NCBI RefSeq assembly: GCF_002954225.1
Contig: NZ_PPTH01000011.1
Coordinates: forward strand, 67,934 to 131,933
Direction of reading: 5' to 3'
From: Arthrobacter ruber
GTDB taxonomy: Bacteria > Actinomycetota > Actinomycetes > Actinomycetales > Micrococcaceae
DNA: 64,000 nucleotides
Positions 28,663-32,947 of the stretch are shown one piece after another. Below the pieces are notes generated by a model that saw only the letters and a program-made list of their open reading frames with translations, had not been told where the DNA came from and searched no databases. The position numbers and the translations under genes were made by a program. How positions within the stretch are numbered: position 1 is the first letter of the stretch; every line of letters begins with the position of its first letter.

Positions 28663-30639
28663 CTACTTCAGGTCCTGGTAGATCCGACTCGCGTCGGAGG
28701 ACGCGAGCTGCCACGGCACGCTGGCCACCATCACGCCGGGCACGAAGTGCAGGCGCGCCTTGATACGGAGGGCGGTCTGGTTGTGGACCAGCTGCTCCCA
28801 CCACTTTCCCACCACGTACTCGGGGATGTAGACCACGACCAGGTCGCGCGGGGAATCCCTGCGCATGGTGGTGATGTAGTCGAGGATCGGGGTGATGGTG
28901 TCGCGGTACGGCGAGGCGAGGACCGTGATGGGCACGGGGATCTCGTATCGCTCCCAGTCGGCGAGGGTGCGGCGGGTCTGGGCGGGGTCGACGTCCACAG
29001 TGATGGCATCGAGCCGGGACGGCCGTGAGGCTCGTGCGAAGGCGAGCGCCCGCAGCACCGGCTTCCGGACGTGGGAGACGAGGATCACGGCGTGGACCCG
29101 GGAGGGAAGGGCCCGCAGGTGCACGGCGTCGTCGATCGCGAGTTCGGCGGCCACCACGTCGTAGTGCTTCTTGATGCTGCGCATGACGGCGAAGAGCATC
29201 GCCATGGCGAGCACCGCGATCCACGCCCCGTACTCGAACTTGGTGATGAGGACGACGACGAGCACGGCCGCGGTGAGGCCGAAGCCGAGCGCGTTGATGG
29301 CCAGCGACCGGCGGATAGACCAGCGCTCCTGAGCGCCGACGGTGCTGCGCAGGGTCCGGCTCCAGTGCCGGACCAGACCCAGCTGTCCCCCCGTGAAGGA
29401 GACGAACACGCCCACGATGTACAGCTGGACCAGCGCTGTCACGTCCGCACGGAAGACGAGGATCAGCACCACGGCGCCCAGCCCGAGCAGGAGGATGCCG
29501 TTGCTGAAGGTCAGCCGGTCCCCCCGGGTGCGCAGCTGCCGGGGCAGGTAGCCGTCCTTGGCGAGGATGGAGGCCAGCACGGGGAACGCGTTGAAGGCCG
29601 CGTGGCCGGCGAGCAGGAGGATCAGCGCCGTCGCCGCGACGACACCGTAGAAGGCCGGGGATCCGGCTCCGAAGACGGTCCGGGCCAGCTGGCTGATGAC
29701 CGGCGCCTGGATGTAGTCGGCGGGGACGGGCTGTCCGTCGAGGAGCAGCTGCGCCGCGGGGTTCTGCACCACATGCACGCGCGTGGCGTTGGCGAGGTAG
29801 ATGACGCCCGCGAGCATCGCGGAGGAGACGACGCCCACGAGCAGGAGGGTGGTCGCCGCGTTGCGGCTCTGCGGCGCCTGGAAGCGCTGCACGTTCGACG
29901 CCGGCCCTTCGAGTCCGGTCAGCGCCGCGGCGCCGGCCGAGAACGCCCGCAGGATCAGCAGGCCGCCGGCCAGGCCCACGAGGCCGGCGTCGAGGGCCGC
30001 CTCGGGCACGATCTCGAACCGGGCGCTCGGCGCCTGCCCGAGCGAGCCCGTGAGCGCCCGGACGATGCCCGTGGCGCACAGGGCGAGGATCCCGGCGAGG
30101 AAGGCATAGGTGACGACCGCGCGGGCACGGACGCCCCGCATGACGCCGCGCAGGTTCAGCAGCACCAGCACCGCGACGCCCGCGACGGCGAGGGTCACGC
30201 GGGCGCCCTCGAGCGCCGGGGCGAGCGAGACGACGTACTGCGCGGCCGCCGACACCGAGACGGCCACGGTGAGCAGGTAGTCGATCATGAGGGCCGACGC
30301 GACGGTGGTGCCGGCCCGGGGGCCGATGTTCCGCTTGGCGATCTCGTAGTCGCCACCACCGGACGGGTAGGCGTGGACGGCCTGGCGGTAGGAGGCGACG
30401 ACCACGAGCAGCACCGCGATGACGGCCAGGCCTACCCAGGGCGAGATGGCGACCGAGGCCACTCCGGCGAGGGCGAGGGTCAGCAGGATCTCGTCGGGGG
30501 CGTACGCGACGGACGAGAGGGCGCTTGCGGAGTACACGGGCAGGGCGAGGCGTTTCGGCAGGCTCCTGGTCCTCAGCCTGTCGCTGGCGAAGGGCTTGCC
30601 CACCAGCACCCTCTTGACAGCCTCGAGAAAAGTCAGCAC
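28663..30639 (-). CDS. APC-superfamily permease, KimA-like potassium importer
   Basis: The 658-residue product has about 12 transmembrane helices (residues 30-480) and a soluble C-terminal domain of about 180 residues. The N-terminus RVLVGKPF, ALSSVAYAPDEIL, SYRQAVHAYPSGGGDYEI and MIDYLLTVAVSVSA closely match, from memory, the KimA (YdaO) high-affinity K+/H+ symporter family. The gene diverges from two TrkA/RCK proteins, which supports a potassium role. A general amino-acid permease is the alternative. Start is GTG 30639, six bases after a -10-like TAGTCT, suggesting a leaderless mRNA. Confidence 0.75.
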   Translation of the reverse strand: MLTFLEAVKRVLVGKPFASDRLRTRSLPKRLALPVYSASALSSVAYAPDEILLTLALAGVASVAISPWVGLAVIAVLLVVVASYRQAVHAYPSGGGDYEIAKRNIGPRAGTTVASALMIDYLLTVAVSVSAAAQYVVSLAPALEGARVTLAVAGVAVLVLLNLRGVMRGVRARAVVTYAFLAGILALCATGIVRALTGSLGQAPSARFEIVPEAALDAGLVGLAGGLLILRAFSAGAAALTGLEGPASNVQRFQAPQSRNAATTLLLVGVVSSAMLAGVIYLANATRVHVVQNPAAQLLLDGQPVPADYIQAPVISQLARTVFGAGSPAFYGVVAATALILLLAGHAAFNAFPVLASILAKDGYLPRQLRTRGDRLTFSNGILLLGLGAVVLILVFRADVTALVQLYIVGVFVSFTGGQLGLVRHWSRTLRSTVGAQERWSIRRSLAINALGFGLTAAVLVVVLITKFEYGAWIAVLAMAMLFAVMRSIKKHYDVVAAELAIDDAVHLRALPSRVHAVILVSHVRKPVLRALAFARASRPSRLDAITVDVDPAQTRRTLADWERYEIPVPITVLASPYRDTITPILDYITTMRRDSPRDLVVVYIPEYVVGKWWEQLVHNQTALRIKARLHFVPGVMVASVPWQLASSDASRIYQDLK

Positions 30640-30644
30640 AGCCC

Positions 30645-30650
30645 AGACTA
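30645..30650 (-). promoter_or_regulatory. -10 element giving a probable leaderless kimA-like mRNA
   Basis: On the minus strand TAGTCT (TANNNT) is followed by GGGCT and then the GTG start of the permease. Transcription from this hexamer would begin at or next to the GTG. No Shine-Dalgarno sequence is present before the start. Leaderless mRNAs are common in Actinobacteria. Confidence 0.45.
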
Positions 30651-30742
30651 GCGCGTCCGTGCCTGCGCCCAGCCACTAGGCTTGGTGCTGGTACGGCACG
30701 GGACGGCAGGGTCGGCAGCAGGATCTACAGCAGGAATCAGGG

Positions 30743-31423
30743 GTGCCCTCGGTGGCTCATTTCGTGATCATGGGGTGCGGCAGGGTGGGCGTCAGCCTGG
30801 CGCACACGCTCGACGAGTCCGGGCACTCCGTGGCGATCATCGACCAGGACGACCGCGCGTTCCGCCGGCTGCGCTCCTCGTTCGGCGGGCGGAAGGTCAC
30901 GGGTGTCGGCTTCGACCGGGAGACGCTCAAGCACGCCGAGATCGAGACCGCCTACGCCTTCGCCGCCGTCTCCAGCGGTGACAACTCGAACATCCTCGCC
31001 ACGCGCGTGGCGAGGGAGACGTTCCACGTACCGCACGTCGTCGCCCGTATCTACGATCCGGGGCGCGCCGAGATCTACCAGCGCCTCGGTATCCCCACGG
31101 TGGCCGCGGTCCGCTGGAGCGCCGACCAGGTGCTGCGGCGGATCCTGCCCGAGCAGACCATCAACGGCGACTTCCGGGAGACCTCGGGCCGGCTGATCCT
31201 CGCCGAGCTCGCACTCGCCGACGCCTGGCTCGGCAGATCCCTGAGGAGCATCGAGGCCGCGAGCGGCGTGCGGATCGCCTACGTCACGCGCTTCGGCGAG
31301 GGCATCCTGCCCACGGCCGGCACGAGCTACCAGCAGGGTGACACCCTGCACGCCATGATGAGGACGACGGCGACGGACGAGATCACGCGCATCCTCGCCG
31401 CGGCGCCGAAGGAGGAGGACTGA
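30743..31423 (+). CDS. TrkA/RCK-family potassium uptake regulator 1
   Basis: The 226-residue product contains an RCK_N Rossmann domain (VIMGCGRVGVSLAHTLDESG, then AIIDQDD) that binds NAD(H) or ATP, and an RCK_C domain at about 140-220. The acidic residues at the ends of strands 2 and 4 fit NAD binding. Related genes are called ceoB in mycobacteria. Start is GTG 30743, with AGGA ten bases upstream. It overlaps the next TrkA gene (TGATG) and diverges from the KimA-like permease, so the products probably gate or control that or another K+ transporter. Confidence 0.9.
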   Translation: MPSVAHFVIMGCGRVGVSLAHTLDESGHSVAIIDQDDRAFRRLRSSFGGRKVTGVGFDRETLKHAEIETAYAFAAVSSGDNSNILATRVARETFHVPHVVARIYDPGRAEIYQRLGIPTVAAVRWSADQVLRRILPEQTINGDFRETSGRLILAELALADAWLGRSLRSIEAASGVRIAYVTRFGEGILPTAGTSYQQGDTLHAMMRTTATDEITRILAAAPKEED

Positions 31424-32100
31424 TGAGGGTCGTCATAGCCGGGGCAGGGAGCGTGGGATCCTCGATCGCGCGGGAACTGCTCGGCAACAAGCACGAGATC
31501 CTGCTGATCGACGAGAAGCCGGAGGCCATCGGCCGCAGCGGCCTCAAGGGCGCGAAGTGGCTGATCGGCGACGCCTGCGAGCTGACCACGCTCAAGGACG
31601 CCCGCCTCGACGAGGCCGACGTCGTGGTCTCGGCAACGGGCGACGACAAGGTGAACCTGGTGGTGTCGCTGCTCGCCAAGAGCGAGTTCGGGGTGGGGCG
31701 CACGGTGGGCCGGGTGAACAACCCGAAGAACGACTGGATGTTCGACGACTCCTGGGGCGTGGACGTGGCCGTCAACACCCCGCGCCTGATGACCGCCCTC
31801 GTCGAGGAAGCCGTGGAGGTGGGCGACCTCGTGCGCCTGCTGACGCTGCAGACCGGGGTGTCCTCGATCGTCGAGTTCACCGTGCCCGCGGACTCCCCCC
31901 TGGTCGGCAGTACGATCGGCTCCATCGCCCTTCCCCAGGACTGCGCCGTCGTGGCCGTGCTGCGCGACGACTCCCCCGTCACGCCGAGCCCTGACGACGT
32001 CGTCGAGGGCGGCGACGAGATGTTCTTCCTCGCGGCGATCGCCGCGGAGGACGACCTGCGGATCGCCCTCTCCGCCCGCAGCGACGGGTCCGAGGACTAG
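31423..32100 (+). CDS. TrkA/RCK-family potassium uptake regulator 2
   Basis: The 225-residue product has the Rossmann motif VVIAGAGSVGSSIARELL and Asp/Glu after strand 2 (LLIDEKPE), followed by an RCK_C domain. It corresponds to ceoC of mycobacteria. Its ATG overlaps the TGA of the first TrkA gene by one base. Two separate RCK proteins probably form a hetero-oligomeric ring. No TrkH/KtrB channel gene is in the window; the KimA-like permease is the nearest K+ transporter. Confidence 0.9.
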   Translation: MRVVIAGAGSVGSSIARELLGNKHEILLIDEKPEAIGRSGLKGAKWLIGDACELTTLKDARLDEADVVVSATGDDKVNLVVSLLAKSEFGVGRTVGRVNNPKNDWMFDDSWGVDVAVNTPRLMTALVEEAVEVGDLVRLLTLQTGVSSIVEFTVPADSPLVGSTIGSIALPQDCAVVAVLRDDSPVTPSPDDVVEGGDEMFFLAAIAAEDDLRIALSARSDGSED

Positions 32101-32155: not shown

Positions 32156-32947
32156 CTAGTCCGCCGTCCCGGAACCGGAGGCTGCGCCTGCCGGCACGGC
32201 GGGCCGGGACACGACCCACGCGAGCCAGAGACCGAGCGCGTAGAGCGGCAGGCCCATCGCCACACGCGTGGAACCGAGGGCCGCGACGTTCTCCGCGAGG
32301 TACAGCGGCACCTGCACCACGAGGCGCAGCGCGAGGACCGTGACGATGATCCAGGTCGCCACGCCGTAGGCGCGGACGCGCGCAGGATCCTTGCGCCACT
32401 CGATGCCCTCGTTGCGGATGAAACCGAACAGGAGTCCGGCGAAGGGCCACCGGAACACCACCGAGGCCACCATCGCCACGATGTAGCCGGCGTTGATGAA
32501 GAACCCGGGGAGGAAGAAGTCCTCGGCGTTGCCGGTACGCAGCGCCACGAACGCGCAGACGGCGACCCCGATCAGCCCGGCCACGGCCTGGGTGACGGGT
32601 GTCCGCGAGACGAGCCGCACCACGGTGAAGACCGCCGAGACGGCCAGCGCCGCGATCAGCGAGACCTGGAGGTCCGTGGTGAAGGTGAAGAGCACCGTGA
32701 ACACGAGCCCCGGGCCGATGCTCTCCGCCAGCCCCTGCACGCCGCCGATCGAGGACAGCACGTCGATCTGGCCGGAGTCGCCGCGACGCACCCCGGACTT
32801 CGCCGCGTACTGCGTCGCGAGGTCCGCCGCCGACGGGCCCGCCTGCTCGCCGGCCGGTGCAGCGGCCGAGGGACGGGCACCCGGGCCGGCGCCGCCCGCG
32901 GCGGGCACGGGCCGACCGGCCTCCGGCTCGTCGATGGGATAGCTCAT
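32156..32947 (-). CDS. DUF3159 family membrane protein
   Basis: From ATG 32947 the product has 263 residues: a Pro/Ala-rich head of about 60 residues, then six or so transmembrane helices (GPGLVFTVLFTFTTDL, SLIAALAVSAVFTVV, AGYIVAMVASVVF). The layout matches DUF3159, an actinobacterial family without known function. It is encoded 14 bases after the OB-fold gene in a conserved block that continues with DUF3710 and dut. The convergent trkA gene ends 55 bases away. Confidence 0.85.
   Translation of the reverse strand: MSYPIDEPEAGRPVPAAGGAGPGARPSAAAPAGEQAGPSAADLATQYAAKSGVRRGDSGQIDVLSSIGGVQGLAESIGPGLVFTVLFTFTTDLQVSLIAALAVSAVFTVVRLVSRTPVTQAVAGLIGVAVCAFVALRTGNAEDFFLPGFFINAGYIVAMVASVVFRWPFAGLLFGFIRNEGIEWRKDPARVRAYGVATWIIVTVLALRLVVQVPLYLAENVAALGSTRVAMGLPLYALGLWLAWVVSRPAVPAGAASGSGTAD

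Follow-up and report, generated by a model that had tools for sequence, protein, structure and literature searches.

A KimA-type permease without the potassium-coordinating aspartate, encoded beside the RCK proteins CeoB and CeoC in Arthrobacter ruber

The DNA considered here (the window) is a stretch of 64,000 nucleotides from contig NZ_PPTH01000011.1 of Arthrobacter ruber. Its subject is a short divergent locus, where a permease gene of the kimA type lies back to back with two genes, ceoB and ceoC, that encode RCK proteins. The same three genes recur together across Actinomycetes. In the Arthrobacter protein, however, the aspartate that coordinates K+ in KimA of Bacillus subtilis (Asp36) has been replaced. 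The parts of the locus are these, where TM stands for transmembrane helix and c-di-AMP for cyclic di-AMP.

28663..30639, minus strand: kimA-type permease gene, 658 amino acids, GTG start; by position, the orthologue of Mycobacterium tuberculosis Rv2690c
30743..31423, plus strand: CeoB-type RCK protein, 226 amino acids; TrkA_N with nucleotide motif GCGRVG; no Pfam TrkA_C match
31423..32100, plus strand: CeoC-type RCK protein, 225 amino acids; TrkA_N (GAGSVG) and TrkA_C
30640..30742, no strand: divergent intergenic region, 103 bp between the permease and ceoB starts
30523..30525, minus strand: Ser39 codon of the permease, by alignment the counterpart of KimA Asp36 (K+ coordination, intracellular gate)
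29893..29907, minus strand: TM6b segment Gly245-Pro246-Ala247-Ser248-Asn249, aligned to KimA 234-238; remodelled
29602..29604, minus strand: His346 codon of the permease, aligned to KimA Asn316 in the TM8 tunnel
28717..29112, minus strand: cytosolic C-terminal domain of the permease, with c-di-AMP pocket residues His-Asn-Gln-Thr at KimA 579-582
32156..32902, minus strand: DUF3159 membrane protein gene (Pfam PF11361, E 9.3e-66), adjoining ceoC

The first-pass annotation of this DNA, made from its letters, had the coordinates of these open reading frames right, as well as their divergence and the overlap of the two RCK genes, which amounts to one base. CeoB and CeoC are two adjacent single-RCK proteins, both with intact GxGxxG nucleotide motifs.

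The permease is a KimA-type protein (KUP subfamily, APC fold) and a full-length homologue of KimA. Its sole sequence match in the PDB is B. subtilis KimA (6s3k/8b70/8b71; phmmer E 1.1e-95), in a match that spans residues 6-644 and takes in the cytosolic domain. Foldseek, given an AlphaFold2 model of the permease (mean predicted local distance difference test score, pLDDT, 82.7; predicted template modelling score, pTM, 0.72), puts the three KimA structures at ranks 1-3, then cation-chloride cotransporters, and then amino-acid carriers. Pfam does, of course, label the protein AA_permease_2 (E 3.3e-22). This is no argument for amino-acid transport, because KimA leads both the sequence and the structure rankings; the first-pass assignment to KimA rather than to the amino-acid permeases therefore stands. 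The nearest named relatives are Arthrobacter bussei (91% in the permease) and A. subterraneus (77%).

Around the locus, the gene order is dxs, a TrmA-like methyltransferase, the permease, ceoB, ceoC, DUF3159, an unnamed open reading frame, DUF3710, dut, DUF3093 and DUF4193. The position of ceoBC, between kimA with its TrmA-like neighbour and the DUF3159-DUF3710-dut segment, is the conserved placement of a CeoB/CeoC pair. We take these surroundings to correspond to Rv2682c-Rv2699c of M. tuberculosis. There, ceoB and Rv2690c are adjacent, and both were hit in a single transposon-sequencing (Tn-seq) selection (PMC12216072); deletion of ceoBC disturbs K+ homeostasis (PMC6375644, PMC12136442). The 103-bp intergenic region has no Rfam match, and no riboswitch of the ydaO c-di-AMP type was found there or elsewhere in the window.

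This arrangement is widespread. In the first phylum sample, all 12 best matches from the same class have ceoB and ceoC divergent beside a kimA-type gene; seven loci from other classes likewise carry both ceo genes beside kimA, five of them divergent and two (L035, L036) co-directional. The triad appears in most of 80 named loci, for example in Streptomyces, Mycolicibacterium, Rhodococcus, Micromonospora, Nonomuraea, Amycolatopsis, Cellulomonas, Oerskovia and Aeromicrobium. DUF3159 adjoins ceoC in the other Actinomycete loci inspected.

Co-occurrence was assessed in 298 Micrococcaceae genomes, with CeoB counted at E <= 1e-30. KimA was matched in 262; two of these matches (E 3.5e-6 and 9.5e-6) proved to be other permeases and were removed, leaving 260. 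KimA and CeoB are then both present in 260 of the 298 genomes (27 genera) and both absent from 38 (five genera), and the two lists agree exactly. In genus g168, to which the A. koreensis group belongs by position, both genes are kept though unlinked, for instance about 2 Mb apart in one genome (G453). TrkH, in contrast, is found in 298 of 298, including all 38 genomes that have neither protein. Thus, CeoB tracks KimA, not TrkH. Across the wider class (148 genomes), the link is close but has exceptions: 132 have KimA and CeoB, 10 CeoB only, one KimA only and five neither. KimA and CeoB occur without TrkH in all five Mycobacteriaceae-like genomes, in agreement with the report that Streptomyces venezuelae lacks TrkH and KtrB (PMC10117811). 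The partnership of permease and RCK genes suggested at the first pass is thus borne out: synteny is conserved across Actinomycetes, and in Micrococcaceae the co-occurrence is exact.

In a Trk or Ktr system, the channel is encoded with its RCK genes. Here, as the first reading had it, no TrkH or KtrB gene lies beside ceoBC in the window. The search elsewhere in the genome that it had proposed turned up a single TrkH (C15), overlapped by an RCK gene of its own. CeoB and CeoC therefore do not look like orphaned subunits of TrkH, and the earlier suggestion of two alternative K+ systems under shared control is not supported in that form.

Where kimA is missing, DUF3159 stays beside ceoC, which makes it a second candidate membrane partner of CeoBC. 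Those CeoB-only loci that were read carry no other transporter in kimA's place, and the rest of their neighbourhood is intact. Separately, five loci of one family (L191, L192, L194, L195, L198), with kimA absent or present as a weak match only, have a gene that looks serpin-like by eye between DUF3159 and DUF3710.

The cytosolic tail of the permease brings in a second possible input. Of the c-di-AMP pocket residues of KimA, R337, H579, N580 and Q581 persist throughout the Micrococcaceae clade without Asp36 described below, and S582 is Thr (Ser or Thr in others). The window genome also encodes a DAC-domain cyclase. Control by c-di-AMP and control by RCK proteins had at first been treated as alternatives; with the pocket kept and a cyclase present, both inputs are possible, and the tail is predicted to bind c-di-AMP. 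In other classes of the phylum (L029, L036 and L023 among others), many KimA homologues have another copy of the cytosolic c-di-AMP domain directly behind them, several of these in one and the same open frame; this may be a KimA with tandem domains or a stand-alone domain gene.

In KimA, K+ is liganded by D36, Y43, T121, T230 and Y377, and E233 is needed for proton coupling; in E. coli Kup, the equivalent of D36 is D23 (PMC6994465; PMC10284832). Both D36A and D36N wholly abolish K+ uptake, and D36A abolishes K+/Rb+ exchange (PMC6994465). A comparison of the C-terminal and pore residues with those of B. subtilis KimA, a check named at the first pass, divides: the pocket, Glu233, Y43, T121, T230 and Y377 are present in the window permease, while Asp36 is absent. 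Alignment puts Ser at KimA position 36 and Ser at 237. The plain description "K+ importer" therefore claims too much, since the residue now serine is one whose replacement by Ala or Asn abolishes uptake in KimA.

This loss is not a peculiarity of the strain; sampling of the genus and family shows an old, clade-wide change. All readable species of the window genus have Ser or Asn at position 36, with a single KimA copy in each genome. A maximum-likelihood tree, computed with positions 36 and 237 masked, unites permeases without Asp36 in a clade of 45 sequences (28 Ser, 17 Asn; Shimodaira-Hasegawa-like approximate likelihood ratio, SH-aLRT, support 99). It holds the window genus and the coded genera g145, g146, g154, g159, g162 and g167, at least seven Micrococcaceae genera. 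Outside this clade and two isolated losses, Asp36 is found in 108 of 108 homologues. The tree thus needs three changes, one at the base of the clade and two on single sequences. At position 36 the codons GAC/GAT, AAC/AAT and AGC/AGT predominate, which fits a route from Asp through Asn to Ser. The presence of TrkH was considered as an explanation of the loss and set aside; being present in every Micrococcaceae genome, it cannot discriminate.

The isolated cases deserve a word of their own. In Arthrobacter sp. B6 (L088), Asp36 has become Ser on a long branch with Asn237 kept, perhaps a recent inactivation. A distant homologue from outside Micrococcaceae (L178, genome G191; 34%) has Gly at 36 and lies beside ceoB and ceoC. 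A genome identified by identical sequence as Arthrobacter hankyongi (G349; L154, L155) carries both types, a CeoBC-linked copy with Ser36 and an unlinked second copy with Asp36, which offers a natural comparison within one cell.

The neighbourhood of the missing carboxylate has changed with it. The clade is marked by I235P, N237S/A, G/A238N and N316H, with Pro235 fixed in 45 of 45 members, His316 in 44 and Asn238 in 43; outside the clade, Asn316 is found in 107 of 108 homologues. Y43, D117, T121, S125, T230, E233 and Y377 are invariant in all 45. Clade-specific changes in the membrane domain lie at most two residues from published pathway residues in 8 of 16 cases, against 45 of 210 eligible columns (hypergeometric p 0.008), a value that is descriptive only because the set was chosen after the data were seen. 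Co-change of sites 36 and 237 was put to a test of independent pairs; with only three independent losses of Asp36 it has no power, and the apparent correlation is not claimed as coevolution. One structural parallel was rejected: the proline at 235 does not fall at the TM6 proline position of cation-chloride cotransporters relative to the conserved TM6 Thr.

The permease is under purifying selection. The ratio of nonsynonymous to synonymous substitution rates (dN/dS) has a median of 0.164 for the genus and of 0.06 for relatives with Asp36, against 0.08 for ceoB in both groups. A residue essential for K+ transport has been lost, yet selection keeps the gene. This means that either the job of the protein has changed or the accepted mechanism is incomplete.

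The reading preferred here, to which we give a probability of about 0.5, is that the locus is the Actinomycete KimA-CeoB-CeoC module, and that its transporter here has the KimA fold and an altered cation site and is controlled by CeoBC and c-di-AMP. One part of this is firmer and has good odds of being right: that the permease, its c-di-AMP tail and CeoB-CeoC make up one module of K+ homeostasis. Such a module would consist of a proton-coupled cation transporter of the KimA fold, with two nucleotide-binding RCK proteins from overlapping genes as its readout. It would receive two cytosolic inputs, c-di-AMP through the permease tail and a nucleotide signal through CeoB-CeoC. In Arthrobacter sensu lato and related Micrococcaceae genera, the cation site would have been rebuilt without Asp36 by way of its TM1, TM6b and TM8 neighbours, and bulk K+ uptake would presumably fall to TrkH with its own RCK protein. 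The KimA-type protein would then most likely still be a transporter, its cation site changed in affinity, ion or coupling. A more specific version, which we consider unlikely but worth stating, has the KimA fold working without a carboxylate on another ion or on a K+-anion pair, at a site made of His316, Pro235 and Asn238, and under CeoB-CeoC control. Cation-chloride cotransporters manage without an acidic residue at the site.

Several points count against this reading. Ten of the 148 class genomes keep CeoB without KimA, kimA having gone from an otherwise intact locus. The RCK_C signature for c-di-AMP, (I/L)(I/L)x2DxRx5N(I/L)(I/L), was not found in CeoB or CeoC, even when relaxed, and Vnz_27460, which its locus number marks as the likely counterpart in S. 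venezuelae, is listed among RCK_C domains without c-di-AMP binding (PMC10117811). The action of CeoBC on the permease is a prediction from the gene set, and transport and a new specificity are likewise predicted from sequence. Finally, the membrane domain has a higher dN/dS in the group without Asp36 (0.164) than in Asp36 relatives (0.057), and the values for the cytosolic domain are 0.079 and 0.050; a fast membrane domain with a slower cytosolic one also fits partial loss of transport.

This leads to the main rival, that the permease no longer transports at all. It would instead be a regulatory or sensory subunit anchored in the membrane, with tail and CeoBC working and a signal passed to, for example, TrkH, which every Micrococcaceae genome has. 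Loss of a transport-essential residue is what such a view expects, as is a shift of constraint from the membrane domain, where 27% of columns are invariant in the clade and 51% in Asp36 Micrococcaceae, to the cytosolic domain (51% and 36%); because sampling depth differs between the groups, the reversal within each is more telling than the absolute percentages. Against it, a dead pore would hardly keep seven ion-pathway residues, Glu233 among them, invariant in 45 of 45 members (chance about 1e-4 by a simple estimate), and newly fixed Pro235, Asn238 and His316 would be odd in one. We regard it as unlikely, though it must be taken seriously.

Less likely again is an ordinary K+/H+ symporter of the KimA type, in which K+ is held by Ser or Asn, T121, Y377 and backbone, and to which the D36N result does not transfer. 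All other residues of the K+ site are kept, of course, and the changes around it could be compensating. This must contend with an aspartate that no homologue elsewhere has given up (the isolated losses apart) and that Kup shares as Asp23, and with the failure of both KimA mutants in uptake and of D36A in exchange (PMC6994465).

Somewhat more doubtful still is the view that TrkH, or the DUF3159 protein encoded next door, is what CeoB and CeoC gate, the kimA-type gene being a mere neighbour. The ten class genomes with CeoBC and without KimA speak for it, seven of the nine checked having TrkH, as does the persistence of DUF3159 beside ceoC. It does not sit well with the 38 Micrococcaceae genomes that have TrkH and neither CeoB nor KimA, with the Mycobacteriaceae-like genomes where the reverse holds, or with the TrkH of the window genome, whose gene overlaps an RCK gene of its own.

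Two further views can be dismissed briefly. Decay of the gene, which a fast membrane domain and a permease split into two frames in G175 might suggest, is already largely refuted by the open, full-length frame that each of the other 35 genus genomes has and by a dN/dS well below 1; and an amino-acid permease, for which the Pfam name speaks, is just as improbable, given a KimA match that extends through the tail and amino-acid carriers that rank behind even the cation-chloride cotransporters.

Why does this matter? In M. tuberculosis, CeoBC has long been studied as the system for low-affinity uptake of K+, yet both of its proteins are soluble RCK subunits. Because the co-occurrence of CeoB and KimA is exact in Micrococcaceae, the KimA-type permease is the leading candidate for the membrane part. 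If this is true, the missing subunit of the M. tuberculosis "Trk" system would be supplied, and no RCK protein before CeoBC would have been shown to gate a KimA-type symporter. Further, at least seven genera naturally carry a substitution lethal to KimA activity in the laboratory. Their permeases are a ready set of variants for asking what Asp36 really does, and what the KimA fold can do without it.

The kimA-ceoB-ceoC cluster is already known in pieces. The literature searched, with subscription papers largely outside it, held no paper linking KimA with CeoBC and none on a natural KimA without Asp36. KimA (YdaO) itself, the B. subtilis K+/H+ symporter of the KUP family (6S3K, 8B70, 8B71), shares with the window permease its fold, full-length homology, residues T121, Y43, T230, E233, D117 and Y377, and most of the c-di-AMP pocket. 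The window permease differs in Asp36->Ser, Asn237->Ser, Asn316->His and Ile235->Pro, and in its link to two RCK genes.

In layout, Rv2690c-ceoB-ceoC of M. tuberculosis ("Trk") agrees in all three genes, their order and their neighbourhood (TrmA-like, DUF3159, DUF3710, dut), as does the Mycolicibacterium locus; the mycobacterial relatives, unlike the window permease, retain Asp36. Papers up to 2026 call only CeoB and CeoC "Trk" and leave Rv2690c an unnamed integral membrane protein. S. venezuelae has the KimA-like Vnz_27465 (39% to KimA) and, at the neighbouring locus number, the RCK_C protein Vnz_27460; a review leaves the two unconnected, while the Streptomyces loci here carry the triad, with Asp36 kept in those examined. 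KtrAB and TrkAH use RCK proteins of the CeoB/CeoC family, but their membrane partner is a TrkH/KtrB channel, and the TrkH-RCK pair of the window genome sits away from ceoBC. In KhtTU and CpeAB, as proposed here, an RCK-domain protein controls a transporter rather than a TrkH channel. Those systems differ in that the transporter is a K+/H+ antiporter for efflux, the RCK_C domain binds c-di-AMP, and the membrane protein is unrelated.

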